Origin: an uncultured Victivallaceae bacterium
Lineage (GTDB): Bacteria; Verrucomicrobiota; Lentisphaeria; Victivallales; Victivallaceae
Reading direction: 5' to 3'
DNA: 44,643 nt
Assembly (NCBI GenBank): GCA_944389925.1
Contig: CALXOD010000038.1
Span: 1 to 44,643, forward strand
Shown: positions 20,753 to 38,267 of the stretch, in pieces
Layout: each line of letters starts with the position of its first letter
Position numbering within the stretch: the stretch's first letter is position 1
Notes under the pieces: generated by a model
The model's input: only the letters and a program-made list of their open reading frames with translations
The model's database searches: none
Told to the model about the DNA's origin: nothing
Translations under genes and position numbers: made by a program

Positions 20753-21166
20753 TTACTGCGTAACATCTTCTCCGTTTGGGCCCGTAGCCTCTATCCCCTG
20801 ACGGGTTACGCTTAAATTCTCACGCGTAGCCGTAATCACTTCCGCTACCGCCGTCAAATCGGTATCCGGCAACAAAGAAATGTACCCCTTCGCAACTTTT
20901 CCGGCGAAAATTTTCCCAGTCGGGGTCGGGGCTTCCGGAGTCGCCGCAGACAGAGAAATATATCCCGCCCAGCCGTTCTCCCAGATAATCACCGACTTGT
21001 GCTGAAGAGATCCGGTTACAGCTTTTACCACACTTTCATGTGTTTCGGTAACTCTTACCACTCTGCCCGTCTCCGGCTCCAATTCCGTAATCACTGTCGA
21101 AGTGCCGCAGCCGGTCAGAATCAACACCATTCCAACTACAGCCAAACCACCCAGGATCCATTTCAT
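20753..21166 (-). CDS. Small lipoprotein at the end of the phage-like operon
   Basis: 137 residues. The N-terminus MKWILGGLAVVGMVLILTGC is a lipoprotein signal with the lipid-bearing Cys at 20. Beyond it no known domain is apparent; the segment ESVVKAVTGSLQHKSVIIWENGW and repeated Thr/Val-rich strands suggest a small beta domain. The start overlaps the stop of the preceding gene as ATGA and has AGAGGAG upstream, so it is translationally coupled to the phage-like operon. In phages a lipoprotein here could serve in lysis (Rz1-like), though it is longer than Rz1, or as a surface protein made by the lysogen. Neither is shown by the sequence. Confidence 0.6.
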   Translation of the reverse strand: MKWILGGLAVVGMVLILTGCGTSTVITELEPETGRVVRVTETHESVVKAVTGSLQHKSVIIWENGWAGYISLSAATPEAPTPTGKIFAGKVAKGYISLLPDTDLTAVAEVITATRENLSVTRQGIEATGPNGEDVTQ

Positions 21167-21612
21167 AGGTTTGTTACTCCTCTTTTATGGCTTGAAAACA
21201 AATCTTTTTCTTCCGCGCATTCGCGATACTGCGACCAGCCGAAGGCCTGACAGTAGCGGGCCAGCCGGGCGGCACGGCGAATGGCAAGATACCGGCGCGG
21301 ATCGTACCAGCGGTACCGTGCTTTCGCCACGATTTCACCATTGGCGGCAAAGCGGTCGTTGGTCGCGGTGAAGTGTTCGCGCGTCCCGTCCGCTTCGTAC
21401 CACTCGACATCGTGGATGAAGGCCGGAAGTTCCGCTTCCGGGCGGAGGTCCGTTACCAGTTCCCGCGCCCATTCCGGGAAGAAGTCCGGGCCGATGCCGT
21501 TGCAGAGTTTCCGCAATTCGGCGTCGCGGTACTTGTCCAGTACGTCGCGCCCGGCAAGTCCAAGGCGGTTGACTTCACGCCGCATGGCGCGCACCTGATC
21601 CAATGTGTACAT
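21163..21612 (-). CDS. Phage-like operon protein, unknown
   Basis: 149 residues, basic, mostly helical, rich in Arg, Tyr and Trp. The segment ELPAFIHDVEWYEADG followed by FTATNDRFAANGEIVAKARYRWYDPRRY is seen in small proteins near the 3' end of tailed-phage structural operons, but I cannot name a function. The true start is the ATG at 21612, since AAGGGA lies 8 bases upstream. Downstream coupling is through an ATGA overlap with the lipoprotein. Confidence 0.6.
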   Translation of the reverse strand: MYTLDQVRAMRREVNRLGLAGRDVLDKYRDAELRKLCNGIGPDFFPEWARELVTDLRPEAELPAFIHDVEWYEADGTREHFTATNDRFAANGEIVAKARYRWYDPRRYLAIRRAARLARYCQAFGWSQYRECAEEKDLFSSHKRGVTNL

Positions 21613-21626
21613 CAAAACATTCCCTT

Positions 21627-23108
21627 TTAACTGATTGGCGTAATGTTTAGAATAGCTTTACATCGTTCAAATTCTGCAAGAACTTGTTCTGCTGTTAGCG
21701 CTACATTGAAAAGCTTCATTTCACGGCGACATCCACCAAGCTCATCACCACCTCCATTACCACCAAAGTATAACCATTTATAACCACCATAATTAGGATC
21801 TCCAGAGAACGTTCCTCTTGCTACACCATCAATATACAATGTAGCTAACTTTTTCTTTCCTGAATATGTGAGCGCTGCATGATGCCAACTATTCACGATT
21901 GATGAGTTCTCAAACTTGTAACAATAGTCAGTTGACAGTGCTTTCCCGATTACCCCGAGAACCGTTATCGGATTATACCAATTAATTGCAATACAAATTC
22001 CGTTACCGGAATACCTGCCAAAACCAAGAACGGCAGTAAATTTGTTGGAAATTCCCTCATCTCCACCCCAAAATGCTGCAGAAAGTGTAAGATCTGTGAA
22101 ATCTCCATAATATGTGTGTGGATATTCTGCAAGATCTTGTTCTCCAATACCTGAAGATCCAGTTAATTCTGTAACGTCAATCCCGGCTTTCTGAACCAGC
22201 GCAAACGAGGTATCACCGGAAGCCACCATCGTCTCCCCCCAGTCGGGGGTCAGGACAACATAGCCGGAAGCATCTGTTTCCGGCAGTGTTTTCCCCTCGA
22301 TATACGCGCGGCAGGCGTTGCCGTATTCGGAGCCGACGGGATCGCCGATCAGCCGGGAGGCGCTCATGGCGTAAACGCCGTGCGGCTTCGGCGTGAACTG
22401 ACTGCCGGATGCAATAGTATCCGCACCGTCGAACGTGTAGGCGTCCTGCGCCGCGTCATAGCCGGTCGCCTTATGAACGGTGATTTCCTCCGCGCTGCCG
22501 CCGGTTATTTCCACCGTCACTTCATCAGAAAACCCGTATGAAATATTATTCCATGTCTCTGTTCCGTTTGTAAGCTCTTTACCAGGTTTTATCAAAAAGG
22601 CGAGAGACAGATCAGGCGTCTGAGTCACCCTGAACAGAAACCAGACGACGTTTTCATCGTCAGGTTTTGCCGGTGAGTTCCCCGTCATTTCATCGGCAGT
22701 ACCGAGATAAAACTCCTCCGTTTCATGTTTATAAACGGGGTAGGCACCTCCTTCAAATCCAGCCTCCATATATAACTGATACTTTCCATTCGCTCCGACA
22801 AGAGCGACACCGGGCTCTGTTTCCATCTCATGATTGGTGATACCGCTCAGCGTCAGCTCCGTCACCTTTTGGAAGGGAGGATTATAAGAAGACACCTTCA
22901 CCAAATCGAAAGCTCCTCCTCCGCCGGAGCCACCGCCGGAAAGCGGCGTCCAGCTTTTTCCGTCGGAACTGTAGGAGAGCGTTTCACCCTCTTTTTTGAT
23001 CAGGCCGATTGTTCCGCCCACCTTGCTGCCGACCGTGCCGCTGTCCAACACAGTGGCGATACCGGTTTCTCCGCCGATTTTTGTCATGGTAATGCCGTTT
23101 TCGCTCAT
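21627..23108 (-). CDS. Fibre-like protein with C-terminal LamG/concanavalin-type domain
   Basis: At 493 residues this is the second-largest product of the phage-like operon after the large terminase. The N-terminus (1-55) contains repeated Gly-rich short strands and SYSSDGKSWTPLSGGG, followed by a flexible GGGSGGGG linker near residue 60. The middle (about 65-310) is beta-rich. The C-terminal ~180 residues look like a LamG/laminin-type jelly roll (SSIVNSWHHAALTYSG, LATLYIDGVARGTF, KLFNVALTAEQVLAEFERC). The family binds glycans or proteins, so this is probably a receptor-binding fibre. Bases 21640-22190, which encode the LamG part, are clearly more AT-rich than the rest of the gene, suggesting acquisition by recombination. 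The start overlaps the preceding gene's stop. Confidence 0.65.
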   Translation of the reverse strand: MSENGITMTKIGGETGIATVLDSGTVGSKVGGTIGLIKKEGETLSYSSDGKSWTPLSGGGSGGGGAFDLVKVSSYNPPFQKVTELTLSGITNHEMETEPGVALVGANGKYQLYMEAGFEGGAYPVYKHETEEFYLGTADEMTGNSPAKPDDENVVWFLFRVTQTPDLSLAFLIKPGKELTNGTETWNNISYGFSDEVTVEITGGSAEEITVHKATGYDAAQDAYTFDGADTIASGSQFTPKPHGVYAMSASRLIGDPVGSEYGNACRAYIEGKTLPETDASGYVVLTPDWGETMVASGDTSFALVQKAGIDVTELTGSSGIGEQDLAEYPHTYYGDFTDLTLSAAFWGGDEGISNKFTAVLGFGRYSGNGICIAINWYNPITVLGVIGKALSTDYCYKFENSSIVNSWHHAALTYSGKKKLATLYIDGVARGTFSGDPNYGGYKWLYFGGNGGGDELGGCRREMKLFNVALTAEQVLAEFERCKAILNITPIS

Positions 23109-23521
23109 GCTTCACCTCCCGTCATCTGTTCCCGGACCTGATCCAGCGTTAAATTGACCAGCGCCAGCCATTCGGAAACCCGTTCGTCCAGAAGATCGAT
23201 CATGCCGCCCGGCGCGGCGTCGCTGGAAAGGAGCGCCAGCCCGGCGAGCGCCGGTTTCAGGGCTGCCTCATTCTGCATCACCGCCGCCACCTGTTCCGCC
23301 GGAATCAGGGCGTACAGCGCCCCGATGAAAGCGGAAATCGGCACCCATTCGGAAGTCGCCCCCGGCTCGGGAAGTTCAATCACCGCGCCGTCCACAATGT
23401 CCAGGCGGGAGGTGGGCAGCGTGCCGGTATAAAGAATCCACCCGGCTTCCAGCATGGCGGTTCGGCCGAGGCTCGGGCCGTTCCAGGCGATGACGCTTTC
23501 ATTTTCTTTTTTCACATACAT
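23105..23521 (-). CDS. Small acidic phage-like operon protein
   Basis: 138 residues, acidic, starting MYVKKENESVIAW. It sits between two LamG-domain fibre genes, the position where tailed phages often encode tail-fibre assembly proteins, but I see no diagnostic motif. The end overlaps the next gene by 4 bases (ATGA), and the gap to the previous gene is 4 bases. Confidence 0.5.
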   Translation of the reverse strand: MYVKKENESVIAWNGPSLGRTAMLEAGWILYTGTLPTSRLDIVDGAVIELPEPGATSEWVPISAFIGALYALIPAEQVAAVMQNEAALKPALAGLALLSSDAAPGGMIDLLDERVSEWLALVNLTLDQVREQMTGGEA

Positions 23522-23525
23522 ATTT

Positions 23526-24290
23526 TCACCCCATCGTGTTTGAAATTGCGGCGATTTCCGGTTGAGTCAAGGCGCGGTCGAAGATCAGCGCGGCGGAAAT
23601 ACGGGTCAGGCTACCGGCATAGTAAGAGTCATTCGGATCGCGCCGGATTCCAACGGTGGTTTCCTGCGTGGTCGTGGCTGTTGGAGTCCCCCACGCAAAT
23701 GCCTGAGCGGAACTGCTCCCCACCTGCACACCGTCTACAAATGAACGCAAAACGGTACTTTCCGGAAGATGCTCTATTGAAAACGCAAACACATGCCAAC
23801 TGTCAAGCAGTTCTGAAGCATCCGCGTAAGCTGAATAAAAAACCCTGCCGTTGCTTACTACCGGATAAACCTGAATCAATCCGGATTGCCGGTCTTCGCG
23901 AACACTAAAATGAAAAGTAAAAGCAGTTGCCCCGGAACCGGCATTCCCCTGACTGATGAGGGGATGCAGGAAGAATCTTCCGGCGTCAGGATCATGCGCG
24001 GGGCAGAATGCCCGGACGATGAAGGTCTTGGACGTAGTATTCCCGCGAAAATCAAGCGGCGTGGCGATTCCGGCGACTTTTGCATCGTTCTCTGCGCGGA
24101 AGACGCCACCGGCGGTTGTGATGTTGTTGAAGGTCAGCAGCCGGGTACGCTCTTCCCAGGTGCCTTCCCCGGATGGTACGGCAGGTTGTACACCTTCCGG
24201 CTTCAGAATAGACAGCCAGCGCCCGCCCTGCAGGGCGTCCGCCGCCAGCAGACAGGACGGGTCTTTCGCAATCTGTGAAAGTGCACTCAT
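23526..24290 (-). CDS. LamG-like (concanavalin A-type) fibre protein
   Basis: 254 residues from the ATG at 24290 (AAGGAAG upstream). An N-terminal helical stretch (MSALSQIAKDPSCLLAADAL) is followed by a jelly-roll region with LLDSWHVFAFSIEH, STVLRSFVDGVQVGSS, TVGIRRDPNDSYYAGSLTRI and ALIFDRALTQPEIAAI, the hallmarks of LamG-type glycan-binding domains. The frame is open upstream to 24443, but that stretch is a strongly structured intercistronic region. It is one of two LamG proteins in the operon and probably contributes to host or surface binding. Confidence 0.65.
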   Translation of the reverse strand: MSALSQIAKDPSCLLAADALQGGRWLSILKPEGVQPAVPSGEGTWEERTRLLTFNNITTAGGVFRAENDAKVAGIATPLDFRGNTTSKTFIVRAFCPAHDPDAGRFFLHPLISQGNAGSGATAFTFHFSVREDRQSGLIQVYPVVSNGRVFYSAYADASELLDSWHVFAFSIEHLPESTVLRSFVDGVQVGSSSAQAFAWGTPTATTTQETTVGIRRDPNDSYYAGSLTRISAALIFDRALTQPEIAAISNTMG

Positions 24291-24426
24291 TTTAACAATC
24301 TTCCTTTCTCCAAGGCTGGAGTACGGCGGAGCCGCACGGACTGCCGCCGGAGGGGGCCACCCAAAGTAGTGGTCCCGAAGGGATGAATCAGCATCCGTGA
24401 TGCTGATGAAAACAACTTTGGGGGGA
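24291..24426 (-). other. Structured intercistronic RNA region (three-way-junction-like)
   Basis: The 136 bases between two fibre genes are almost all self-complementary. CCCAAAGT (24360-24367) pairs with ACTTTGGG (24415-24422) and encloses two hairpins: TCCC-GAA-GGGA (24373-24383) and TCAGCAT-CCGTG-ATGCTGA (24388-24406). Nearer the downstream gene lie GTACGGCGGAGCCGCAC-type and CTCCA/TGGAG hairpins. The structure starts 5 bases after the upstream stop codon. No U-run follows, so it is not a simple terminator. Possible roles are transcript processing, attenuation or translational control. Confidence 0.5.
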
Positions 24427-25431
24427 TCATTTTGAAACCTCAATCTGTAAATCTGTTCCGATAACGGCGGTCACGGGATCGGTGTCTTTGAGCGTGTCGC
24501 GTTCGTCGCCGGTGTCGCGGGTGATGGTGATCATGCCGGTTGCCGGGGGATCGAAGGTGATCATCTGCATCTCGTCGGTTGCGGTAACGGGAATCACCAC
24601 CGCGTCGCGCGGCACGCCGTTGACGGACGGGATCAAAACCACGTTGCCGGTTACGGAGGAAGAAGCGGACCGGATGTAAAACTTCAGCGTGGAAACGTTG
24701 CGGACAAAGTCGGCAAGGCGCATTTCATTATACGTCCCGTCGAGATAATGGCACGGCACGCCGTCCAGTTCCACCAGCGGCACGGCATAGGCGTAAACCC
24801 CGCCGGGATTCCCCTGCGGACCTGCCGGCCCCTGTTTGCCATCCGCGCCGGGCTCCCCCTGTTTCCCTTCCTGCCCCTGCGGGCCGTAGGGAATGGCGAA
24901 CGGATCCGACGGCATTCCGGAAACACCCCAGCGGACGCGCTCCAGCGTGTCGCCCGGCTGTAATTCGCCGTGCCATGCGGAGCCATCGGCACTGAACTCG
25001 AAAAACAGCGCCGGCGTGACCGATTCCGGCGGATTCTGCGGATCATAGAGCCGCGGCACCGCCAGCGCCGTGTCGAACAGCAACACGTCGCCGCCGTCGC
25101 CATCCCGGTGAATCTGTACCCGGATTTTCATATTTTCAGACTGAACGTAGCGCACATATTCTTCGGTGTAGGTATCCACGTTGAAAACCAGCGTTTCCGC
25201 CCCCGGTTCCGGCGTGCAGGTCGCGGCAAAAAGCGTTTGATTCCCGTAATACCCCAGCGCCCCGGAAAAGGTGTAAAGTTTTCCCGCTTCCGGAGGAACG
25301 GCCCGGCCTTCGGAATCGAGCATCTGAAATTCCAGAAGCGACTGGTGTTCGCAGTCGATCCGCAGCGGCGCCAGCGGTGCCGTCCCGTCCGCCGTACACA
25401 GCCGGCGCGTATCAAGATGAAGGTAATTCAT
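24427..25431 (-). CDS. Fibre-like protein with short collagen-like stalk
   Basis: 334 residues. Residues 1-175 are beta-rich and contain SLLEFQMLDSEG and EFSADGSAWHGE, similar to N-terminal attachment domains of phage baseplate or fibre proteins. Residues 183-211 are Gly-x-y repeats (GPQGQEGKQGEPGADG and onward), a collagen-like trimerisation stalk found in phage tail fibres. The C-terminal part (212-334) is a small beta domain. It precedes the structured region and the LamG gene. The function is inferred from architecture only. Confidence 0.6.
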   Translation of the reverse strand: MNYLHLDTRRLCTADGTAPLAPLRIDCEHQSLLEFQMLDSEGRAVPPEAGKLYTFSGALGYYGNQTLFAATCTPEPGAETLVFNVDTYTEEYVRYVQSENMKIRVQIHRDGDGGDVLLFDTALAVPRLYDPQNPPESVTPALFFEFSADGSAWHGELQPGDTLERVRWGVSGMPSDPFAIPYGPQGQEGKQGEPGADGKQGPAGPQGNPGGVYAYAVPLVELDGVPCHYLDGTYNEMRLADFVRNVSTLKFYIRSASSSVTGNVVLIPSVNGVPRDAVVIPVTATDEMQMITFDPPATGMITITRDTGDERDTLKDTDPVTAVIGTDLQIEVSK

Positions 25432-25467
25432 GTTTTTCCCTTTCCCTTTTTTTCATCGGGGCATTTT

Positions 25468-26502
25468 TCATCTTCCAAGAAATGCCGTGTCATACTTCGT
25501 GGCGACGTTTACCCATATACTCCCTGATCTGTAATAGGAGCATTCTTCAGGGCCTTGATAATTGGAAAACTTCTCATAATCGATATCGAAATATTGGATC
25601 AGATCTACGCCTTCCGCACCGGGATGCCATTGCTCGGTCCAGCTTTGCAGAATTGGCTCATGGATGTATTCGTCATTTTCCCTAAGATGGTAACTCAATT
25701 CACTTCTTACCAGCCATACGGAATCGAGAATATCATAATACGCAGTATCTACATAAATATTATACCGTTCCGGAATGGTACGATCATCTGTCCATGACCC
25801 CTTTCCACTATTGTTATCAGCCATTCCTCCGGCACGTCTATAAACACCTCCACCATTGCCAGGATATGTGTATTCCACTTCCATGTTATCTTTTGACTTT
25901 GCCCAGAAAAACGGAATTCCGGATTCCGGTTCCATGTTTGAAAGTTCTTCAAATAGAGAGCCGTTTCCATCGGTATAGAGATATCTCCATGAATCACCAT
26001 ATGAAAGATTGCTGACATGACGATCCAGCGTGGTCATTCTGGTTCTGATCGGAGTGAGAACATACTCGAAATAGCGCATGATCCGGCGCGTCTGCAGCAG
26101 CCATTCGGCCATGTAAATCGGGTCAAAACGTTTCAGCTGGATCCGTTCCTCCCCCAGGTCCTCCAGAATCTTATCCAGAGTCCAGGTGGGAAGCTCCGGC
26201 TCGTCCGGATGTGTATCATGATACTCTCTTACCGGGTAAATCTGCTTGAACTTCTCAATGTCGACAAACTTCTTTGACCATGCGCTTAAATATCGGTCGA
26301 CACTGCTTAAATAATCTATGACATTCAGTTTTTTGGAAAATCTTGTCTCTGGCCTAGGCAAGCCAATTACATTAGTCCCGGCGCCCTTTCCAGTCACCAT
26401 TCCCATTTCATACATTGCCTGCATCAATGGGGTTAGTACTTCAGCAGGATTCCGGAACCGTATTTCCGGGAAACCGGCTTCTTCCCATCCGTTCGGCTTC
26501 AT
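25468..26502 (-). CDS. Phage-like structural protein, unknown
   Basis: 344 residues, rich in Tyr, Trp, Glu and Asp, starting MKPNGWEEAGFPEIRF. No domain is recognised. The segment WLLQTRRIMRYFEYVLTPIRTRM is probably helical; the C-terminal half is likely beta-rich (YNIYVDTAYYDILDSVWLV). Roughly 25540-26050 is more AT-rich than its flanks, the same pattern as in the LamG gene. The start codon overlaps the previous stop as TGATG, so it is translationally coupled. It could be part of the tip or a host-range module. Confidence 0.5.
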   Translation of the reverse strand: MKPNGWEEAGFPEIRFRNPAEVLTPLMQAMYEMGMVTGKGAGTNVIGLPRPETRFSKKLNVIDYLSSVDRYLSAWSKKFVDIEKFKQIYPVREYHDTHPDEPELPTWTLDKILEDLGEERIQLKRFDPIYMAEWLLQTRRIMRYFEYVLTPIRTRMTTLDRHVSNLSYGDSWRYLYTDGNGSLFEELSNMEPESGIPFFWAKSKDNMEVEYTYPGNGGGVYRRAGGMADNNSGKGSWTDDRTIPERYNIYVDTAYYDILDSVWLVRSELSYHLRENDEYIHEPILQSWTEQWHPGAEGVDLIQYFDIDYEKFSNYQGPEECSYYRSGSIWVNVATKYDTAFLGR

Positions 26503-27041
26503 CAGACGAAAAACCTTTCAGAAAACATGATCCTGCCACCATCAGTGTATACCTGATAGACTTTTCCATTCTCAATTCTCGCCAGCTCGAAATACCCCCA
26601 CTCACTGCCTGACGTCGGCAAACTGGTGGTGATCTCCAACTCGTATGCCTCCCCCGTCCATCTGGCGACCAAGTAGACGGAAGCACTTCCGGAAGGAAAC
26701 GGAAGAAACGTCGCCGGCACGGAGTCAGTACTCAAATCGGTGAAACCAGCAATACCGGAATCCGGTCTCGTACTATCGATAATTTTTAACTGTCTGGCCC
26801 CCTCTTCGGTACCGTCCACCGGTACCACTGCAAAGTACCCGAAGTACTGAGTTGGAGAAATCATAGTAGACGCGGGTAATGGCACTCGGAACGTATCCGT
26901 CCCATCGGAGAAAATCGTCCGTCCATCCGGCTGCGGATGTGTCATGGCATACTCTACACAGTCCAGCAGACGACACAACCACTCCGCGCTGATCAAATCC
27001 GGATCGGCCATCGGACGAGTCGGCAAATCAGGCTTCGACAT
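26502..27041 (-). CDS. Phage-like structural protein, unknown
   Basis: 179 residues starting MSKPDLPTRPMADPDLIS; the start at 27041 is 6 bases after GGAG. The C-terminal portion is beta-rich with short ordered repeats (SVYLVARWTGEAYELEITTS, WGYFELARIENGKVYQVYTDGG), a pattern common in phage fibre-associated proteins. It overlaps the end of the previous gene and is coupled to the next. Confidence 0.5.
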   Translation of the reverse strand: MSKPDLPTRPMADPDLISAEWLCRLLDCVEYAMTHPQPDGRTIFSDGTDTFRVPLPASTMISPTQYFGYFAVVPVDGTEEGARQLKIIDSTRPDSGIAGFTDLSTDSVPATFLPFPSGSASVYLVARWTGEAYELEITTSLPTSGSEWGYFELARIENGKVYQVYTDGGRIMFSERFFV

Positions 27042-27825
27042 AAATATCTCCATCAAGCTTGCTGGTGTTGGTATAGGTAACGCGCTGAACCCAGTATCGT
27101 CCCTCCTTGCGCATGGAAGAACCGCCACGCAACCAGAACCCGGTTGCTCCGAACGTTTCCGGAGGAGTGGCTATGTGAAAATCATCGGCAATCTTCCGAA
27201 TCAACTTGGTTCTGGAGGCCGAACGGCAGGTGTGTGTCACCACCGCCACCCCGGTCAGATAAGATGTGATTCCCGGTTTTTCCTCCGGCAGCAACACCCG
27301 CCACTGATCGGGCACCGACTCGTCTGGCCGAGCCCAGCGCCATTGCCGGGCCTCCTCCTCTTTCATCCGGTCGTCTACCGCTGTAGACCACCAGGACGGA
27401 GAAGACACTACGCCTTCCGCCGCCAGTAGTTTGTGATCCCAGTTGTACCGATAGTCCGGATGCTGATTGAGTGGTGCGGAAAATTCACGGGTTGAGTATT
27501 CCACCGACTCATACACCTCCGTATCGCCGAGCGGCGCCATCCCCGGGGGATAAGCATACACCAGAACTACCTCATAGGTTTTCCCGCCGGTCATCGCCCG
27601 AACCGTCCGGGACCGCAGCCGCAATCCCGAAAACATATTGAAAAACTCATGTTCCGTGTTGGAATAGGCTGTCCCCGGCAGCGGAATCGCCGCAATTTCC
27701 GATGCGGCAACGATATAACGTTCCGTAATGTTTTCATCGCCCTCTTCACCGGATAATTCCGGATATCCGGGCTGCATGACCCAGCCGATCCGTCCAATTA
27801 ATTTTGCCGGATTTTCGCTCATCAT
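27028..27825 (-). CDS. Phage-like structural protein, unknown
   Basis: 265 residues. The start ATG at 27825 (or 27822) follows AAGGAG. It begins MMSENPAKLIGRIGWVMQPGYPE, and the rest is a mixed alpha/beta protein with many Trp and Tyr (YRYNWDHKLL, WWSTAVDDRMKEEEARQWRW). It lies between the presumed neck genes and the fibre genes, so it may belong to a short tail or adaptor. I find no family motif. Confidence 0.5.
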   Translation of the reverse strand: MMSENPAKLIGRIGWVMQPGYPELSGEEGDENITERYIVAASEIAAIPLPGTAYSNTEHEFFNMFSGLRLRSRTVRAMTGGKTYEVVLVYAYPPGMAPLGDTEVYESVEYSTREFSAPLNQHPDYRYNWDHKLLAAEGVVSSPSWWSTAVDDRMKEEEARQWRWARPDESVPDQWRVLLPEEKPGITSYLTGVAVVTHTCRSASRTKLIRKIADDFHIATPPETFGATGFWLRGGSSMRKEGRYWVQRVTYTNTSKLDGDIYVEA

Positions 27826-28184
27826 ACCAACTCCTTCTTCGTGGTGCGATTCTGAAGCAGCACCGATTCAATCCGTTCCAGCAATCGATTCCGTTCCACA
27901 TCCAGTTCGGAGGAACCCACGGTAGAAATTCCACGTCCCGGAAACATCTCTCCAGACGTTATCCCCCCGTGAGTCCAGCCCCATGCAGAGCTTCCCATAT
28001 TCCCCCGGCCTCCTCCAACGGCAAAAGAGGTGCCGCCCTGACGACTGATTTCCCGCAAAACCCCTGTTTCACGAGCGGTTAAAGTCCCGTTTTCACGGTG
28101 TAATTCAATCATCAGCTGCAGTTTTTCTACTTCGCCTGATGCGCTTCCCGTAACATCCGATTCCCGGTTTTTCGTTTTGCTCAT
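27822..28184 (-). CDS. Small Gly-rich phage-like protein overlapping the preceding gene
   Basis: 120 residues starting MSKTKNRESD, with a Gly-rich centre (SFAVGGGRGNMGSSAWGW) between two helical segments. Its first 80 bases overlap the 3' end of the preceding gene in another frame. It has its own ATG with GGAG 10 bases upstream, so separate translation is plausible, but a frameshift product of the two frames is also possible. Function unknown. Confidence 0.45.
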   Translation of the reverse strand: MSKTKNRESDVTGSASGEVEKLQLMIELHRENGTLTARETGVLREISRQGGTSFAVGGGRGNMGSSAWGWTHGGITSGEMFPGRGISTVGSSELDVERNRLLERIESVLLQNRTTKKELV

Positions 28185-29645: not shown

Positions 29646-29682
29646 CTCTCCTCCTTTCCCGCCTATTTTCAACCGACGAGTT

Positions 29683-30111: not shown

Positions 30112-30112
30112 A

Positions 30113-31030
30113 TCATGCCGCCTTCGTACCGCCGCGATACAGCAGATGCGGGAACGCCGCCGCCGCATTGCCGTAGGCCGTAGCCCCGAAAAGGGCATTG
30201 CCGGACATAAACACCATCTCGTCGGTCGGCTGGTTGAACATGACCAGTTCCGCAGTCTTGCTCTTCTGCATCAACACCGGTTTGATGACGCCGCCACAGG
30301 CTCCGAGGAACCAGTAGCCGGCATTAGCTCCGACCAGATCCAGCGAACAGATCAACCGGACTTTCCCGCGATGAGGATTGTTAACCTCAGTATTTTCGGC
30401 CGTACGAATCTTTTCGCTTTCCAGGATTTCCTTCGCGACGTCCAGCTGCGAAGGCCCGACCAGCAGATGCGTGGGCTTCACCCGCAGTGGAATGCCCGCA
30501 CTGCCGGTATAGCTGCACATGGTCTGATAAGCCGTTCCGAAAGTCTCGGCACTGAGGGCGGCTTCCGTGGTATTACAGATCGTACCGCCCTTCCGGTCGC
30601 CGTATTTACGGTCGGCGGAGAAAAACGCCTTGCCGTCGATCCAGTTCCCGGGATTGGTGATCGCTTCGATAAACAGTGTATCCCAGAGCTGTTCTCCGCC
30701 GGCACCGAGCGCGGCAATCACCGCCCCTTTCTGTTTCCATGCACCGGTTTCAAGATCGCGCTGTCCGATGGCGACGGTATCTTCCCAGGGTTTTTCGGTA
30801 ATGCGCAGGACCTTTTCCGACAGGTTCTTCACCTTACGGTCGCCGATCCATTCGCGCATGAAGGCAAACTGCTCCAGAAACGGAATTTCAACAATCGAAA
30901 AATCGGCATCGCCGACATCCATGCAAAATTCCGGATGTACCGCTTCTGCATGAGCCGCAGTCATTGCTTCGGTAAATTTAAGATTGAACGATGTTTTGAG
31001 CGCCCGCAGCGCGTCAGTCGTGAGTTTCAT
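30113..31030 (-). CDS. Mu-type major head subunit (gpT-like)
   Basis: 305 residues from the ATG at 31030 (AAGGAG, 7-base gap). The N-terminal arm LTTDALRALKTSFNLKFTEAMTAA is the same kind as the start of Mu gpT, and the motif LRITEKPWEDTVAIGQRDLE with LVGPSQLDVAKEIL follows the gpT family. The product forms the capsid shell. The gene lies downstream of the decoration protein and the protease/scaffold gene, the Mu order. A slightly upstream ATG at 31051 lacks a good ribosome site. Confidence 0.85.
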   Translation of the reverse strand: MKLTTDALRALKTSFNLKFTEAMTAAHAEAVHPEFCMDVGDADFSIVEIPFLEQFAFMREWIGDRKVKNLSEKVLRITEKPWEDTVAIGQRDLETGAWKQKGAVIAALGAGGEQLWDTLFIEAITNPGNWIDGKAFFSADRKYGDRKGGTICNTTEAALSAETFGTAYQTMCSYTGSAGIPLRVKPTHLLVGPSQLDVAKEILESEKIRTAENTEVNNPHRGKVRLICSLDLVGANAGYWFLGACGGVIKPVLMQKSKTAELVMFNQPTDEMVFMSGNALFGATAYGNAAAAFPHLLYRGGTKAA

Positions 31031-31054
31031 AGCTTTGCTCCTTATGCCCAAGTG

Positions 31055-31426
31055 TTAACCGCAGATAATCCAGATCCCGTCTTCGTCCACGTCGAAGACG
31101 CGTCCCGCGACAATGCTGTTGCTCCCTCCGGTCTTGGAGACCGTCTGGTCATCGGCAACATAAACGCTTGCGCCCAGATCGGCCCGGGTAATACCGGTTC
31201 CGTCATAGGCGAAACATCCACGCCGGACCAGAATCGCTTCATCCGTAACGGCGCTGTGTTCCGCCCGTCCGACCACCGTCAGACCAGCGGTATCGGAAGC
31301 AGGAACCGCTTTCCCTTCGGCATTAACGGCGACCAGTGCGCCGCAGTAAATGACGGCTCCGGCAACAAACCGGCGGGCGGCGGGGACACGTTCGATTGTG
31401 TCACGGGATTGTGTGAGTGCAGACAT
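31055..31426 (-). CDS. Phage capsid decoration protein (DUF2190-like)
   Basis: 123 residues, nearly all beta. The N-terminus ALTQSRDTIERVPA is followed by GAVIYCGALVAVNAEGKAVPASDTAGL and GRVFDVDEDGIWIICG. This pattern is typical of small capsid cement proteins encoded between the protease/scaffold and the major head gene. The gap to the preceding gene is 3 bases. It probably stabilises the head. Confidence 0.65.
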   Translation of the reverse strand: MSALTQSRDTIERVPAARRFVAGAVIYCGALVAVNAEGKAVPASDTAGLTVVGRAEHSAVTDEAILVRRGCFAYDGTGITRADLGASVYVADDQTVSKTGGSNSIVAGRVFDVDEDGIWIICG

Positions 31427-31429: not shown

Positions 31430-31972
31430 TCATTTTCCTTTCCTGGCTGTTTTATAGGCTTCTTCTGTGAATCCGAAAAAGCGAATTGCTTTCCGGTCAT
31501 CTGACGAGAGAGGTGCGGCATCATTCTGGGCGGCGATACGGCTCTCTTCTCCAGTGACAATACGCTGGAGCGGCACTGCTACCGGCGCATATTCCAGATA
31601 TGCGGCCAGGGCAGCGGAATCCTGTTTACGCGCCCAGTTTTCCGCGCTGTCACAGGTCAGTTTCCCTTCGGCAAGCCCCTGATCGATCAAGGCATCACGT
31701 CGAGTAACTTCCTGTTCGGTACGAATGGCGTCCAGTTCGGCCTTCAATGCATCGTAGCCCCCGGCTTTCGCCAGAGCGCTGTGCAAAGCAGCGGCGATCT
31801 CCGCGTCGGAAACCTCCGGCGACAAACCGAGCGCATTGCGGATTTCCGCGATCAGGCGGCTCTTTTCGCCGATCCGTTCGGCCAATTTTCCGGCATCGAC
31901 GCCGTCCGCCCCCAGGGCGAGTTCATCCGCCCTCAGCAGTTCGGCCAATGCCCCGACAATGGCAGGATCCAT
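31430..31972 (-). CDS. Nested scaffold protein (internal start within the protease gene)
   Basis: Inside the protease reading frame an ATG at 31972 (residue 193 of the full protein) is preceded by AAGGAGG (31977-31983) 4 bases upstream, a perfect anti-16S match. It would produce a 180-residue protein starting MDPAIVGALAELL, with charged helices, ending at the same stop. In phage Mu the scaffold protein Z is made from exactly such an internal start in gene I. The nested product is inferred, not shown. Confidence 0.6.
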   Translation of the reverse strand: MDPAIVGALAELLRADELALGADGVDAGKLAERIGEKSRLIAEIRNALGLSPEVSDAEIAAALHSALAKAGGYDALKAELDAIRTEQEVTRRDALIDQGLAEGKLTCDSAENWARKQDSAALAAYLEYAPVAVPLQRIVTGEESRIAAQNDAAPLSSDDRKAIRFFGFTEEAYKTARKGK

Positions 31973-32548
31973 GAATCCTCCTTTCTGTTGCTCCCGACTT
32001 TCCGCCGCGGCGGCGAGACTGTCGAGATGGTTGATGCCCGGCTCGTTCTCCAGCGCGACACTGGTCAAGCGCAGAGGCGGTTTTGTCAATCCCCGCAGTA
32101 CTGGAGAATAGTATTTAAAAATTCCTTCCTTCAGCAACTCATAAGCGGTCGGATTCCATTTTTCGACCCGGACCCACAAGTCCGAACCACGCCGCTCCAA
32201 CCTGGCAAAACCCATCGCCGCAATCTGTTCCGGCAACAGCCTGACGATCTCCGCCTCATCCAGATGACGGGCCATGGCCAGCCGATGCAGATAGTGCCGG
32301 GAATCGATCGGGATCAATTCCCCTTTGGTCTGAAAATAGGCCATGATCGCGGCAAGATCCTCCTCCTCCAGCAGCAGTTCTCCGGCAATGCCGTTCCGCA
32401 CCAGTGGATTTCCTCCCTGTGACAAGATTTTCCATGCCACCGGGACACCGCATGCATCGCGTTCCACCGTCACCGGCTCCTGCACTGTCCAATCTACTCC
32501 ATCGGACCGCCATAGACTCGAATCGGGTTTTGTTCCATTCCACAACAT
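31430..32548 (-). CDS. Mu gpI-like head maturation protease with scaffold domain
   Basis: 372 residues. Residues 1-180 are the protease part: GELIPIDSRHYLHRL (about 77-91) resembles the PID-x-H catalytic motif of Mu-like I proteins, and EGIFKYYSPVLRGL resembles the conserved ISPV motif. Residues 193-372 are a helical scaffold (ELLRADELALGADGVDAGKLAERIG and onward). The enzyme cuts the scaffold during capsid maturation. GAGGAGG lies 9 bases before the ATG. It follows the portal gene and precedes the decoration and major head genes. Confidence 0.75.
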   Translation of the reverse strand: MLWNGTKPDSSLWRSDGVDWTVQEPVTVERDACGVPVAWKILSQGGNPLVRNGIAGELLLEEEDLAAIMAYFQTKGELIPIDSRHYLHRLAMARHLDEAEIVRLLPEQIAAMGFARLERRGSDLWVRVEKWNPTAYELLKEGIFKYYSPVLRGLTKPPLRLTSVALENEPGINHLDSLAAAAESREQQKGGFMDPAIVGALAELLRADELALGADGVDAGKLAERIGEKSRLIAEIRNALGLSPEVSDAEIAAALHSALAKAGGYDALKAELDAIRTEQEVTRRDALIDQGLAEGKLTCDSAENWARKQDSAALAAYLEYAPVAVPLQRIVTGEESRIAAQNDAAPLSSDDRKAIRFFGFTEEAYKTARKGK

Positions 32549-32572
32549 CGGATATATCCTCCTCTTCTGTGA

Positions 32573-33793
32573 TTATTTCTGATCCCGGCGGTGCAATTTC
32601 AAACCACATCGTGCACCGACCTCCTCCGGATCCGCGGCAAGCCCGGCACGGTAAAGCGTTTCAACCATTTCCGCATAAGCCCGTGCATCCTCCGCCGGTT
32701 TCGTCCGGATGACCAATCGAGGGGCAAAACGAAGGCTGCCGGCATGCCACAAGGTCCATGGCCGGATCAGCTGGGTATTGATGGTATCCTCCAGCGCCCG
32801 GGCGTCCGCTTCGAGAATGTCCTGCCGGACCCGGCTTTGCGCATCGCCTCCGGAAAGTCCGCCGGACTCGGCACTGGACGCCAACTGCCCCAGCAAAACT
32901 TTGACAATTGCGTTCCCGGTATATTCCAGCAGCCGGAAATAGACTTCGCCGGTATTATTCGATGCCTGCAGCAGTTCGATTTCCACACCTTTGGAAAAAA
33001 CACCGCCGCCCGCCGAACCGAAATTCCGAATCAGTCGCCGAATCAATTCCCGGTCCCGCTCCCAGGCGGACTCCCCGAGTTTTCCGATTACAAACGGCAT
33101 ACCGTAACGCTCGATGAAGCTCAGCAAATCCTTAATTGGATAATTCTGAAACACATGCAGCCAGGCTAAAGTCCGAATTTTTCCGTCTGCCAGCGGATCA
33201 ACGGTATTACCGAGACGGTGAACCAGGAACTTATGTTCCGCCAGTGCCACCCCCTCCGGGTGATCCGAGGTCACCAACCGCAGTCCCGTCCCTTGTCGTG
33301 CTGTGAAATGTCGCCCGTCCAACGGCACGAATCCCGCCAGACGCCCTCCCGCCCCCCAGATGATCTCCGCCACGGCAAATGGCGCAATAACCGCACCGGT
33401 CAATGCCCGCACGGTTCTGGCAAAGGACTCCCCTTCTCCCGTTCCCCCTGCGTCGGCCAGTTCCCGCCGGAAACGATCAGCCAGCATTGCTGCAACGGCC
33501 CCTCCGTCTCCTGCCGGAAGAATATCCCAGGAACACCCGCAAAGTGCATTGCGCCGCACATCCATGGCATGCTGAATATCCCAGTTTTCCGCCTCAATTT
33601 CCGGCGCGGCCCGCATCAGCTCCTCGATGTCGCCGATGTCGGCCGCGTCGATAATGTCTCCCAGCCGTTCCGGTGTCATAGCGCCAATCCGTCCGCCACG
33701 ATAACGGTCAGCTGGTTCCGGGTGCGCCGCACGCCCCGGCAGCGGCGGCCGGAATTTACCGCCAACGGCGGGCAGGATGTTCTTCCAAAGCAT
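32573..33793 (-). CDS. Mu gp29-like portal protein (DUF935 family)
   Basis: 406 residues from the ATG at 33793, which has AAGGAGG 7 bases upstream; the frame is open further up to 33943, but that stretch overlaps the terminase gene. Motifs include MTPERLGDIIDAADIGD, DVRRNALCGCSWDI, IERYGMPFVIGKLG and DILEADARALEDTINTQLIRPW, all typical of the DUF935 Mu portal family. The portal is the DNA-entry ring of the capsid. Its 5' end overlaps the large terminase gene by 38 bases. Confidence 0.85.
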   Translation of the reverse strand: MLWKNILPAVGGKFRPPLPGRAAHPEPADRYRGGRIGAMTPERLGDIIDAADIGDIEELMRAAPEIEAENWDIQHAMDVRRNALCGCSWDILPAGDGGAVAAMLADRFRRELADAGGTGEGESFARTVRALTGAVIAPFAVAEIIWGAGGRLAGFVPLDGRHFTARQGTGLRLVTSDHPEGVALAEHKFLVHRLGNTVDPLADGKIRTLAWLHVFQNYPIKDLLSFIERYGMPFVIGKLGESAWERDRELIRRLIRNFGSAGGGVFSKGVEIELLQASNNTGEVYFRLLEYTGNAIVKVLLGQLASSAESGGLSGGDAQSRVRQDILEADARALEDTINTQLIRPWTLWHAGSLRFAPRLVIRTKPAEDARAYAEMVETLYRAGLAADPEEVGARCGLKLHRRDQK

Positions 33794-35297
33794 CGTCATA
33801 CCTCCTTGATTCGTTGAATCCGCGTCCTCTCTCCGCCGCCGGAACTGCCCGTGCAGTTCCGGCCGCCTCCCATATTTCACCGGCATGCAGTGCCAGTGCA
33901 CAACTCCAGGCCATGTCACAGTGCGAATCGGGAAACAGCTCATTGCCGTTTTCCGTAAAGATCAACCGGCCACTGCCGGAAGCAATCTTCCGCACCCCCG
34001 CTAAATCTGCCAGAATTTCGGGATACGTTTCCGGCAGCAGCTGTCGGCGTTGTTCGAAGACTGCCTGCAGCGTGGTTCCCAGCAATATCTTGGATGCCGC
34101 GAAGTTGACGCCTTTGAAACGTCCCGGATAACGGCTTTCCAACGCTTCGCATACCGCCATGCCCAGTCCGGTCCTGTCACCACATCCGACCAACCGGTCC
34201 CAGGCGTCAAACATGGCCCGGACCAACTGTTGTTGAGCGTCAAAGCGACAGTTTTTCAATGTCACCAGTACCGCCAGACGCCAGCAACGTGTCTCCGCAT
34301 CCTCCGCATTGACCCAGATTCCGGAAAGGTCGCCGCTGCGTGCAATGTCAAATCCCAGTGTCAATGTCCGGTCAGCCGCCAGAATAGACCGCCAGAACTC
34401 CTGGTCCAGCCATTCCGGATGCGCATCCAATTCCGTCTGGCAGGAACAGTGAATCCGTACCGACTCACATGCAGCCGTAACAGCGGCCTTCAGATCTTCA
34501 GATGCAATCAGCTGCGCTCCTGAAGCCTGATTCGGCACACACCCGTACTGACTGTCGAAAGCTCCCCGGGAACGGCATCCCGCTCGCAGAGACGCCAGAA
34601 ATTCCTCCCGGGTCTGCGGCGGCATGCCACGGGCAACCCGGGACTCATTGATTGTCTCCACCAGACCATCTTCGATCGCATCGTAGATGGTGGTACGGTG
34701 AAAACTGACGTTTGGACGCAATCCATTCCGACAATCCCGGCACATCCGGGCAAATTCAGTCAATTCCGAACCATCCGGATCAAAGGCGGAGACCAGTTCC
34801 AGCTGCCCGCCCCAGGTAATACAGGGATAGGCCATGTCGTAGATGGCAGCCTGATCAGGATGCAAATCCCATTCGTCAATCAGTACATCCCCCCCTTTTC
34901 CGGCGAACGCCAGAGGATTGCTGGACAAACTGTATATGCGTGCCCCGTTCCGGAAAATCACCACCCGGGCCGTAATGCCATGCTTCTCATCCACTACCGC
35001 CAGCTTCTCCCCGTCTAGACCAAGTGCATCCTCCCAGCCCGTACTCATCCCCCGGGCAATCCGGTTGGCCATCCGGGCCCAGTGTGCTACATAATCGGTG
35101 ATGAATTCCCGGGCGGTAATCTCGTCTCGACTGGATACCCATTGTACAAAATGAGAGTCACGTCGGGCGCTGCGCAAACATTTCCGGCAGGCGCGGTAAC
35201 TGGTAGCATAAGTAATACCGGTTCGCCGGCTTTTCTGATACAGCTTAAGCGGTGACTCATCCTGAATCCACCGCCATTGATAAGGAAGAAATCTCAC
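33756..35297 (-). CDS. Phage terminase large subunit (Mu gp28-like)
   Basis: 513 residues. The ATPase part has the Walker A-like QKSRRTGIT (21-29) and Walker B VLIDEWD (138-144). The nuclease (RNase H-like) part begins with TLGFDIARSGD (about 314-323), with the first catalytic Asp at 317, and ends near SHCDMAWSCALALHAGEIW. This engine packages DNA into the head. The start overlaps the small terminase stop as ATGA, and the end overlaps the portal gene. Length and gene order match Mu-like phages. Confidence 0.9.
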   Translation of the reverse strand: MRFLPYQWRWIQDESPLKLYQKSRRTGITYATSYRACRKCLRSARRDSHFVQWVSSRDEITAREFITDYVAHWARMANRIARGMSTGWEDALGLDGEKLAVVDEKHGITARVVIFRNGARIYSLSSNPLAFAGKGGDVLIDEWDLHPDQAAIYDMAYPCITWGGQLELVSAFDPDGSELTEFARMCRDCRNGLRPNVSFHRTTIYDAIEDGLVETINESRVARGMPPQTREEFLASLRAGCRSRGAFDSQYGCVPNQASGAQLIASEDLKAAVTAACESVRIHCSCQTELDAHPEWLDQEFWRSILAADRTLTLGFDIARSGDLSGIWVNAEDAETRCWRLAVLVTLKNCRFDAQQQLVRAMFDAWDRLVGCGDRTGLGMAVCEALESRYPGRFKGVNFAASKILLGTTLQAVFEQRRQLLPETYPEILADLAGVRKIASGSGRLIFTENGNELFPDSHCDMAWSCALALHAGEIWEAAGTARAVPAAERGRGFNESRRYDDALEEHPARRWR

Positions 35298-35896
35298 AAC
35301 CCCACCTCCCGGTCCATCGCCTCGGCTACGGCAATACCGTCCACGTTGCCGGCCATAGCCCGCAGCTGTTCATTGTGACGACGCAAAGTCTCAAGTTGAC
35401 GGTTTAATTCGGTAATCCGGGCCTGCAATGTTTTTTCACGTAACGCCGCAGATTGCCGTAATTCGGTCCGGGCAGCAGTCAAGCGATTCCTTTCGTAAGC
35501 TGCCAGGGCACTGGAAATGGCTGACAACTCCCGGATATCGAGTTCCTCGGACGCTTCCAGTTTTCCCAATACCGCACGCAGCAGTTCGTAACCGGCAATC
35601 CGGGCAAGATCGTCACTGCCTCCGGATTGTGATACAAAAAAAGCGGCCATCCGCCGCCGCCGCAACTCTTCCGCGTACTTCAAACGGGATCGCCGCGCCT
35701 CATCGAATTCCTCGCTTTCCCGGAAAGCCGCAAAACTGCCATCATGCAGTCTCACTCCCCGTTCCCGGCAGGCATCGGCCACCGTCCCATCCTCTCGTAT
35801 CTCTTCATACGTCGCACCGTCCAGCAGCAATTCCGCAATGCGGTCACGGACTACCAGCGGCAGTCTGGCAATATTGTGACGCGGGCGTCCGGTCAT
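35294..35896 (-). CDS. Phage terminase small subunit-like protein (DUF3486, Mu gp27-like)
   Basis: 200 residues from the ATG at 35896, which overlaps the previous stop (ATGA). It begins MTGRPRHNIARLPLVVRDRIAELLLDGATYEEI, a HTH-type DNA-recognition start, and ends with a long coiled-coil (ARTELRQSAALREKTLQARITELNRQ). This fits DUF3486 proteins, which act with the large terminase in DNA recognition. A longer frame up to 35980 has no ribosome site. Confidence 0.75.
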   Translation of the reverse strand: MTGRPRHNIARLPLVVRDRIAELLLDGATYEEIREDGTVADACRERGVRLHDGSFAAFRESEEFDEARRSRLKYAEELRRRRMAAFFVSQSGGSDDLARIAGYELLRAVLGKLEASEELDIRELSAISSALAAYERNRLTAARTELRQSAALREKTLQARITELNRQLETLRRHNEQLRAMAGNVDGIAVAEAMDREVGL

Positions 35897-36180
35897 CGTG
35901 CCGCTCCCGGTCCGTGTATGAAAGGATCCTGCGGAAAATCCGGTAACAGCTGCTGCCGTCCTTTCGGAGTCAGTCGGCAATAATGGCCGCCGAAACCGGG
36001 AACGGCTTCAATGTAGCCGAGCGCGCAAAGCTCCCTCCATTCTCGCTCCACCTGCGCAAAGTCGTTGTAATGCAAGGCCGGCTCTTCAGAAATTTCCGTC
36101 AACTCCCGGCAGGTGATCGGCGCTCCGGTCAGACAGCGCAGATCCCGCAGAATGGCCAGACGGATGGCATGTTCACGCAT
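35893..36180 (-). CDS. Small winged-helix-like phage protein
   Basis: 95 residues from the ATG at 36180 (GGAG 9 bases upstream). It starts MREHAIRLAILRDLRCLTGAPITCRELTEI, a winged-helix pattern, and ends with HYCRLTPKGRQQLLPDFP, typical of a wing. It probably binds DNA or acts as a small regulator in the early part of the late operon. It overlaps the preceding gene by 8 bases and the next by 4. Confidence 0.6.
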   Translation of the reverse strand: MREHAIRLAILRDLRCLTGAPITCRELTEISEEPALHYNDFAQVEREWRELCALGYIEAVPGFGGHYCRLTPKGRQQLLPDFPQDPFIHGPGAAR

Positions 36181-36526
36181 GGTAGTGGTCTCCATTTTTA
36201 TATCGTTCCAGCGAACGGTCCAGATTTTCAACGTAAGCACGGTTGGCTTCGATTTGCGCCGCCTGACGGGCGGTCTCTTCCGCCATTCGATCCAGCTTGG
36301 CATCCATTTTGGAAATATCTCCGGAAAGCCGTTCCAGCACCGCACAGATGTGCTGGGAGCGATCCGCTGCCAGATGATGTTCCAACTGTCGTGCAATGCC
36401 GTTGACTTTTTCCGTTTCCAGCAACCGCAGATCCCGTTTCAGCTGGGCGATGAATCCCCAGAGAAAGGAAAGCACGGTGGCGGCCGACGCCAATCCGGAG
36501 AGCAGACCCGTCAATAAATCTCCCAT
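36173..36526 (-). CDS. Small membrane-anchored coiled-coil phage protein (DUF2730-like)
   Basis: 117 residues. An N-terminal hydrophobic stretch (LLTGLLSGLASAATVLSFLWGFI) probably spans the membrane, followed by a long coiled-coil region (RLLETEKVNGIARQLEHHL, ISKMDAKLDRMAEETARQAAQ). Mu-like phages carry a similar small protein between the regulators and the terminase genes. The role is unknown; a holin-like or structural function is possible. Confidence 0.55.
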   Translation of the reverse strand: MGDLLTGLLSGLASAATVLSFLWGFIAQLKRDLRLLETEKVNGIARQLEHHLAADRSQHICAVLERLSGDISKMDAKLDRMAEETARQAAQIEANRAYVENLDRSLERYKNGDHYHA

Positions 36527-36941: not shown

Positions 36942-36963
36942 GAGACCATGTGAATGGCAGAAT

Positions 36964-37260
36964 TTATTGTTGCTGGTTTGCGGCACGTCCGCCGCAGCGT
37001 TTGCAGTCCCGTCCCTGGGGCTGGTTGGTATAATATCCCCGGGTTTTACCGTAGTAAATGCAGGTACGATTGTGGATGACGCCGGTACTGCGCGTTACAT
37101 AAAACTCAAAATGAGTCGGTTGCCAATAATAAAGAACTGCCAAGGTCGCACAAACCAGCAGCGCGGCGACAAGAATGGCCACTGCCAGAAGTTTGAAGTG
37201 AATGTGCTGGACGATGACGCCGTGCTGGTCGCCATTGATTTTGATTGTGTTGAAATCCAT
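36964..37260 (-). CDS. Small membrane protein with C-terminal Cys/His zinc-ribbon-like motif
   Basis: 98 residues; GGAGG lies 8 bases before the ATG. One transmembrane helix (HFKLLAVAILVAALLVCATLAVLYYW, approx. 22-47) is followed by a short domain with FYVTRSTGVIHNRTC, GYYTNQPQGRD and CKRCGG. The H-x3-C and C-x2-C pairs could hold one zinc, a pattern seen in small proteins of PVC-group bacteria and their phages. It follows the repressor gene on the same strand. Confidence 0.6.
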   Translation of the reverse strand: MDFNTIKINGDQHGVIVQHIHFKLLAVAILVAALLVCATLAVLYYWQPTHFEFYVTRSTGVIHNRTCIYYGKTRGYYTNQPQGRDCKRCGGRAANQQQ

Positions 37261-37310
37261 TTCTGTTTCCTCCGGTGTTGAGTGCCGAATAAAAACAGAA
37301 AAGGGGAAAG

Positions 37311-37727: not shown

Positions 37728-37756
37728 GATACCACGCCTGTCAGATGTTTTTTAAA

Positions 37757-37784
37757 AAAATACGCTCCGGCATAAAAAAATCAA
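37757..37784 (-). promoter_or_regulatory. Promoter of the repressor gene
   Basis: On the minus strand TTGATT (37784-37779), 16 bases, TATTTT (37762-37757), giving a leader of about 25 bases before the repressor ATG. Confidence 0.45.
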
Positions 37785-37803
37785 TTTTTTTTGAAAAAAC
37801 CCC

Positions 37804-37831
37804 TTGCTTTTTATGCTACAAAGCATATAAT
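37804..37831 (+). promoter_or_regulatory. Plus-strand promoter with embedded operator
   Basis: TTGCTT (37804-37809), 16 bases, TATAAT (37826-37831), driving the HTH gene at 37911. The spacer contains the inverted repeat TATGCT-ACAA-AGCATA (37812-37827), so a bound repressor would block this promoter. Confidence 0.6.
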
Positions 37832-37888
37832 TTATAAAAAAACACCTTTAAGATATTTTTTTTAGCATACATTATGCTTTATAGCACA
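37812..37888. promoter_or_regulatory. Operator set: three TATGCT/AGCATA inverted repeats
   Basis: TATGCT-ACAA-AGCATA (37812-37827) and TATGCT-TTAT-AGCACA (37873-37888) share the same 6-4-6 layout; the second has one mismatch. An additional AGCATA half-site at 37864-37869 forms AGCATA-CAT-TATGCT with the second. Copies lie in the promoter spacer and 40-60 bases downstream of it, a typical phage switch arrangement. Confidence 0.65.
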
Positions 37889-37910
37889 AAAAAAAGGAGA
37901 CTCATCATTC

Positions 37911-38267
37911 ATGTCGAATCAATCACAATCGTCGTCTGACTGTCCCCGGCCCCGGAGTATCCGCCGTCGCCTGTCGCCCCCGATGAGCGGCCTCAATCAA
38001 TTCGAGTTACTGGATGAGCTTAATCGTGAGACCTCCAACTGGCGGAATATTCGGAATTTTCCAGACACGATCACCTGTCGCCGCATGCTGCGCCTTGCCA
38101 ATTTCGCCGCCGCCAATCCACGTCGCTGGACCGTCACCTATTACTGGCACATTCTGGATCTGGACGCGGAAACGATCGCCGCCCGGCTCAATGTCAGTCT
38201 GCGAACCGTCTACAATGATCTACGCCCCATCCGGTTGGACTCAGAAGACCTCCCGCCGGAATGTTGA
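37911..38267 (+). CDS. HTH DNA-binding protein, divergent from the repressor
   Basis: 118 residues; AAAAAAGGAGA lies 10 bases before the ATG. The C-terminus carries a helix-turn-helix (LDAETIAARLNVSLRTVYNDLRPIR, approx. 83-107) of the DeoR/sigma-4-like kind. The N-terminus is Ser/Pro/Arg-rich. It is the only plus-strand gene of the phage-like region and is controlled by the operator-bearing promoter, so it may be the antagonist or activator in the switch. It ends 3 bases from the convergent DUF1638 gene, so the right border of the element is unclear. Confidence 0.6.
   Translation: MSNQSQSSSDCPRPRSIRRRLSPPMSGLNQFELLDELNRETSNWRNIRNFPDTITCRRMLRLANFAAANPRRWTVTYYWHILDLDAETIAARLNVSLRTVYNDLRPIRLDSEDLPPEC

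Follow-up and report, generated by a model that had tools for sequence, protein, structure and literature searches.

Characterized gene transfer agents (GTAs) are few and mostly alphaproteobacterial. The type I agent of Rhodobacter capsulatus (RcGTA), which descends from another siphophage type than the one considered here, is encoded by a vertically inherited head-tail cluster without mobility genes. Its tape measure is shortened to about 216 amino acids (aa) (PMC7296036), and its genes are partly found at other loci (PMC9662315). Criteria proposed for GTAs include multilocus, vertically inherited genomes derived from caudoviricetes (PMC9662315). The closest published gut case is the FpGTA of Faecalibacterium, a gut anaerobe of the Firmicutes, in which a 10.5-kb TerS-TerL-portal-MCP operon (MCP, major capsid protein) is complemented by a fiber/lysis operon about 125 kb away; its particles were shown and called podovirus-like, and no tails were seen in them (PMC12946183). 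Lentisphaerota, Victivallis, and Verrucomicrobia go unmentioned in it. Here, we describe an element on a contig of an uncultured Victivallaceae bacterium. The window, i.e., the whole stretch analyzed, is the entire 44,643-bp contig from a genome that is 97% complete, and its positions 20753 to 38267 hold an intact 17.5-kb cluster of Mu-type head and packaging genes with short tail genes, flanked by host genes on both sides. We read this cluster as a domesticated, immobile remnant of a Mu-headed transposable siphophage that the host probably keeps for phage-like particles, most likely a GTA (probability roughly two in three), and at this stage it is best called GTA-like rather than a GTA.

The element resembles the RcGTA cluster in size, mode of inheritance, and lack of mobility genes but differs in its Mu-type head genes, in its phylum, and in a retained phage-type switch consisting of a repressor and a helix-turn-helix (HTH) regulator. 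The two-operon layout of FpGTA resembles a two-locus arrangement found in another genus of the order (g47; see below), whereas the window element combines a Mu-type head with siphophage tail genes at a single locus. Unlike both agents, it is known from its genes alone. PBSX of Bacillus subtilis keeps a full contractile tail. It is likewise a vertically kept, defective phage-like element, and it packages host DNA (PMC12946183), as the window element may do. Open-access titles and abstracts, with subscription papers outside the scope, contained no report of Mu-like or Lentisphaerota GTAs, nor of such elements as Victivallis prophages. If our reading is correct, the known range of GTAs would grow by one phylum, Lentisphaerota, and by one type of phage ancestor, the Mu-headed transposable siphophages. 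Parallel domestications at differing stages beside still-mobile relatives would make the order of phage-function loss accessible to direct study, and active particles would let genes move between Victivallales of the gut.

Gene content and inheritance of the element

The open reading frames (ORFs) of the element run on the minus strand (except g118), are unbroken and overlapping, and reach 513 aa at most, in agreement with the original prediction for this stretch. PHROGs profiles also bore out the gene order proposed there for the large terminase (TerL), portal, protease, decoration protein, capsid, and gp36-like adaptor. The DUF3486-like gene named in it occupies the slot of the small terminase (TerS) by homology to relatives, while the 228-aa ORF gave no PHROG or Pfam match of its own. 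The closest named head proteins are those of Mu-like transposable siphophages (D3112/JBD30-type Pseudomonas phages and Faecalibacterium phage FP_Mushu; 31% identity for the MCP). In an alignment of TerL with its relatives, the KSRR.GIT, DVLIDE, and nuclease Asp columns were invariant or nearly so.

Searching 78 genomes of the family with the MCP gave matches in 17. In full members, all in other genera, MuA and MuB lie beside the g118 regulator, the portal and protease genes are separated by MuF, and the tape measure is about 550 to 930 aa long; their PHROGs matches include transposase (2e-75), a MuB-type protein (7e-31), minor head protein (5e-33), and tape measure (1e-42). The single relative retrieved from IMG/VR was a full-type phage. 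Since the full relatives carry MuA, MuB, MuF, and a long tape measure, gene content identifies the ancestor type as a transposable siphophage with a Mu-like head.

The window element has none of these four genes. PHROGs and Pfam scans of the element yielded no recombinase, tape measure, sheath, or baseplate match and no integrase/excision or replication module, and MuA and MuB were missing in the gene-content comparison. A MuA protein query was negative in the window genome (G000) and in the two sister species of its genus g1 (G004 and G005) and matched in 19 other genomes of the order; it was used in place of a PF02914 (DDE_2) search, which was uninformative because it gave zero matches even in controls. 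The predicted absence of recombinase, MuA/MuB, and sheath stands. In full relatives, g118 is the first gene of the early operon that leads to MuA. Here it ends 4 bp short of the stop codon of a host DUF1638 gene, a junction common to both sister species; thus, the early end with MuA and MuB is gone. Portal and protease are separated by a gap of about 0, compared to 1.4 to 2.2 kb in full relatives with MuF, and the distance from the adaptor to g265 is 1.8 kb, compared to 3.3 to 4.0 kb. Profile searches of the genus for MuF and tape measure were empty; they contained no in-search positive control, though local profiles find both families in relatives.

The element occupies the same chromosomal site, with an identical right-hand junction, in all three available species of the genus, a conserved position of the kind that the original prediction proposed to look for. 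Rates of synonymous (dS) and nonsynonymous (dN) substitution were estimated by the Nei-Gojobori method, with the comparison to G004 providing the headline values (Table 1). The dS values of element genes lay mostly between 0.3 and 1.0 (outliers: g126 at 1.98, which is near saturation, and g23105 at 0.14). They overlapped the 0.51 to 0.87 of the flanking host genes, which fits vertical descent. The dN/dS ratios of the main structural and packaging genes ranged from 0.02 to 0.15, with intact frames, and those of host genes from 0.03 to 0.11. The protein identities among the three genomes were about 70 to 98% for most genes. In the MCP tree, the genus-level clades g1 and g47 were strongly supported, and the test of vertical inheritance covered three congeners. 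These substitution patterns indicate that the element is for the most part inherited vertically and under selection and is not decaying. Measured against the published description of GTAs, it encodes particle proteins of tailed phages (Caudoviricetes; PHROG head and packaging matches and a tail-tube fold), is fully endogenized (at one locus in the window genome, with two loci for the related elements of genera g47 and g42), and is mostly vertically inherited, with a partly exchanged fiber module.

The loss of tail functions had been predicted too broadly. No full tape measure or baseplate match was found; however, a tail-tube-fold protein (g126) and the g265 and g208 tail families remain. The AlphaFold2 (AF2) model of g126 is predicted to have a fold of the tail-tube superfamily, with Foldseek matches to tail tube, terminator, and hub folds, among them lambda gpV and the neck of RcGTA. 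For g265, the AF2 model (pLDDT, 73) had the JBD30 baseplate as its best Foldseek match, which was not significant (E = 0.056; probability, 0.14), and a search of PDB sequences gave no match, so its role rests on synteny. The slot of the tape measure is filled by the 120-aa g120. Its C-terminal "LDVERNRLLERI" was the best match among 847 ORFs (E = 0.0024) of a profile built from the 50 C-terminal residues of three related tape measures; the second-best was g120 of G004 (E = 0.0099), and none of 5,000 shuffled controls scored as high. The protein is therefore likely, though not proven, to be a vestigial tape measure. Tape-measure length sets tail length, and about 120 aa would give a stub tail only.

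Lysis genes, stated to be lost in the original prediction, seem to persist as a candidate pair at the 3′ end, consisting of a lipoprotein (20753 to 21166) and a protein (21163 to 21615) with a CNGxG...HD motif in the alignment that is reminiscent of phospholipase A2; a role in lysis is plausible. The window genome also contains a second, fuller prophage with a 986-aa tape measure on contig C66 (positions 1 to 12104; L053), which is read as a fragment of a resident prophage. The fiber/adhesin module and the 3′ genes are in parts 86 to 97% identical to this contig, with 93 to 97% for the collagen C terminus, g23105, and g21163. This similarity suggests recent exchange, and recombination with prophages seems to affect the adhesin module, the rest of the element being fixed. 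The C66 tape measure was considered as a second locus of the window system and rejected, because searches of G004 and G005 gave no match to it.

Reduced relatives in the order

Across the order, relatives were detected in 49 of 137 genomes. In genus g47, the capsid gene is present in 12 of 13 genomes, within an 11.8-kb element at one conserved locus (L098, 6726 to 18491) that comprises TerL, protease, decoration protein, capsid, adaptor, a 110-aa protein in the tube slot, the distal-tail family, fibers, and candidate lysis genes. An initial assignment of this element as portal-less was overturned by a genome-wide search: a Mu-type portal occurs in all 13 genomes, at another conserved position among housekeeping genes (L142, 8962 to 10853), accompanied by a TerS-like gene in the loci examined. 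The dN/dS ratios for capsid, TerL, TerS, and portal in this genus were 0.07 to 0.13. Both genomes of genus g42 have portal, protease, capsid, and adaptor at one locus (L060, 5497 to 11786) and TerS and TerL at another (L153, 5872 to 9238), between host genes. MuA, MuF, and tape measure were likewise not found in the g10 genome G017. The smallest versions occur in a clade of several genera in family f8 (L108 to L113 and L117), in which only portal, protease, decoration protein, capsid, and adaptor are present, without tail genes. Apart from G118, which also has a separate full-type phage, these genomes yielded no terminase of this family, and the minimal operons may form DNA-free capsids.

In the capsid tree, the reduced groups were interspersed with full phages. 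A single domesticated ancestor of all reduced elements was rejected (approximately unbiased [AU] test on the MCP tree, P = 0.0005), as was a single origin of g1 and g47 (P = 0.010). The groups for these tests were defined by gene content before tree building, and the reduced-class labels rest on draft-genome contigs, where a gene absent from the contig may sit elsewhere, as did the g47 portal. Repeated domestication of Mu-like siphophages into GTA-like particles within Lentisphaerota appears to be the best reading of this distribution. On a bolder version we are evenly divided: Victivallales would have domesticated one family of Mu-headed transposable siphophages again and again, in no fewer than four to five independent events (g1, g47, g42, g10, and the minimal clade of several genera), each time stripping mobility, MuF, and tail length and in two cases splitting over two loci, and the order would present a stage series of GTA birth that ends in capsid-only operons, maybe a new compartment.

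Alternative explanations and a possible mechanism

The original prediction had left three options, namely, decay, a helper-dependent satellite, and a domesticated GTA-like particle. The third is favored by the shared locus in all three species, the overlapping dS values, the low dN/dS ratios, the lack of MuA and integrase, and the parallel reduced elements. The two refutations named in the original prediction were also followed up: an integrase or tail genes belonging to the element were not found in the flanks, and the dN/dS ratios of the head genes were not near 1.

A domesticated particle could also have a role other than transfer: it might lack DNA or kill, serve as a compartment, or act as a decoy against related Mu-like phages. 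The missing MuF and the nearly absent tape measure could mean that no DNA is injected, and in other genera only portal-protease-capsid-adaptor operons persist, with no terminase of this family detected. However, TerS, TerL, and portal are strongly constrained here, the catalytic columns of TerL are intact, and fibers and the candidate lysis pair are kept; we therefore consider a nontransfer role unlikely.

Decay appears less probable still. On this reading, tail, MuF, and transposition genes were lost from a prophage by ordinary deletion, with the rest not yet decayed; large deletions that hit exactly the mobile and tail-length functions, and the variable regions of g133 and g344, speak for it. 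Against it, the head genes are intact in three species at dS values of about 0.5 to 0.9, a distance far beyond that over which reading frames would survive without selection, so that simple decay is contradicted; neither relaxed selection nor broken structural frames were observed. The operator region is conserved as well, and parallel elements are retained in g47 and g42.

We give equally little credence to a helper-dependent satellite that assembles a capsid of its own but takes its tail from a resident prophage, as do capsid-forming phage-inducible chromosomal islands (PICIs), which share with the window element their own capsid and packaging genes and a limited tail. Head and packaging genes without a full tape measure fit such a satellite, and the C66 prophage, with its 986-aa tape measure and similar fiber module, could be a helper. 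The C66 tape measure was not detected in the sister species, however, and the window element, unlike PICIs, is not mobile: it occupies one site in three species at host-like dS, no integrase, transposase, or replication gene was found in it, and it retains tail-tube, distal-tail, and candidate lysis genes of its own. Mobile satellites are thus contradicted. Misjoined pieces of a full phage could look reduced in draft assemblies, and the sister contigs do break near the fiber and pilin genes, but an artefact is hardly credible given that three separate assemblies agree in gene order and in the genes that are missing.

Several observations weigh against a domesticated GTA-like element. The retained phage-type repressor leaves room for some prophage-like behavior. 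The left border is closed in the window genome only, as the contigs of G004 and G005 break nearby, and the genus is sampled by three species-level genomes that are all fragmented. The fiber module is partly not vertically inherited, as the low dS of g23105 illustrates. The tape-measure match of g120 is short and weak (13.5 bits), and this gene evolves faster than the head genes.

For the domesticated GTA-like element, the data support a scenario in which a Mu-like siphophage would have entered the ancestor of the genus, the MuA/MuB early end would have been lost just past g118, bringing g118 up against the host DUF1638 gene, and MuF would have been lost together with all but about 120 aa of the tape measure, or with the whole tape measure gene. 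The remainder would since have passed down with the chromosome in three species, maintained by purifying selection. We further propose that some of the cells activate the operon through the g118/repressor switch and that a capsid with a stubby tail forms. Because transposition ends specific to the element are gone, TerS and TerL would package DNA of the host. The 3′ gene pair would lyse the cell, and the fibers, whose genes recombine with prophages, would bind recipients.

Features and borders of the locus

Table 1. Features of the element in window coordinates. Single dN/dS values refer to the comparison with G004.
Feature	Position	Strand	Basis	dN/dS
Candidate lysis pair	20753-21615	-	Families at 3′ end of full relatives' late operons	
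Fiber/adhesin module (collagen-like, LamG, 138-aa, and LamG proteins)	21627-25431	-	PHROG tail-fiber matches for collagen-like protein	
g344, variable protein	25468-26502	-	Slot gene of G004 without detected similarity	
g208, tail protein family	26502-27128	-	Homologues after g265 in relatives	
g265, distal-tail protein family	27028-27825	-	Follows tape measure in full relatives	0.099
g120, proposed vestigial tape measure, 120 aa	27822-28184	-	Tape-measure slot between g234 and g265	0.32
g234, probable tail assembly chaperone	28105-28809	-	Position; syntenic upstream of tape measure in G006, G055, G012	
g126, tail-tube-fold protein	28806-29186	-	AF2 pLDDT 74	0.024; range 0.02-0.03
gp37-like, probable tail terminator/completion protein	29223-29846	-	Position; homologous family in nearly all full relatives	
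gp36-like head-tail adaptor	29683-30198	-	phrog_195, 4e-14	
MCP (gpT-like)	30113-31051	-	phrog_371, 4e-42	0.036
Decoration/head structural protein	31055-31426	-	phrog_1731, 5e-27	
Head maturation protease/scaffold	31430-32548	-	phrog_328, 4e-27	0.132; range 0.13-0.14
Site of missing MuF gene	32549-32572	.	Portal and protease nearly abut; same in G004, G005	
Mu-type portal (DUF935)	32573-33943	-	phrog_113, 2e-59	0.059; range 0.04-0.06
TerL, 513 aa	33756-35297	-	phrog_2, 2.5e-19	0.081
TerS (DUF3486-like), 228 aa	35294-35980	-	Position; homology to syntenic genes in relatives' TerS slot	0.127
g167	35893-36396	-	Conserved in phage relatives directly upstream of TerS	0.34-0.42 vs sisters
g117, 117-aa protein	36173-36526	-	98% identity across species; present in full phages	0.02-0.03
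98-aa membrane protein	36964-37260	-		0.13-0.17
Repressor-like protein, 138 aa	37311-37727	-	phrog_18104 transcriptional regulator, 1.5e-5	0.099; range 0.07-0.10
Three operator-like palindromes	37812-37888	.	Between divergent repressor and g118 genes	
g118, HTH regulator	37911-38267	+	HTH_11, E 2e-4; homologue precedes c27-c28-MuA-MuB in G022, G014	

The palindromes of the operator-like region have the sequence TATGCTNNNNAGCATA. Allowing at most two mismatches, three matches were found in the 44.6-kb window, all of them within this region, which is conserved in the sister species. The g117 gene is among the most constrained genes of the element, and its constraint equals that of the capsid protein. 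For g344, tblastn gave no match in G004. Reading of the translations assigned the host genes at the left flank as pilin-like and GntR genes and those at the right flank as DUF1638, RACo-type activator, corrinoid protein, and UroD-like genes. Dozens of other sites in each genome of the genus match the first part of the pilin-like gene (19827 to 20000), and the sister contigs break inside this gene.

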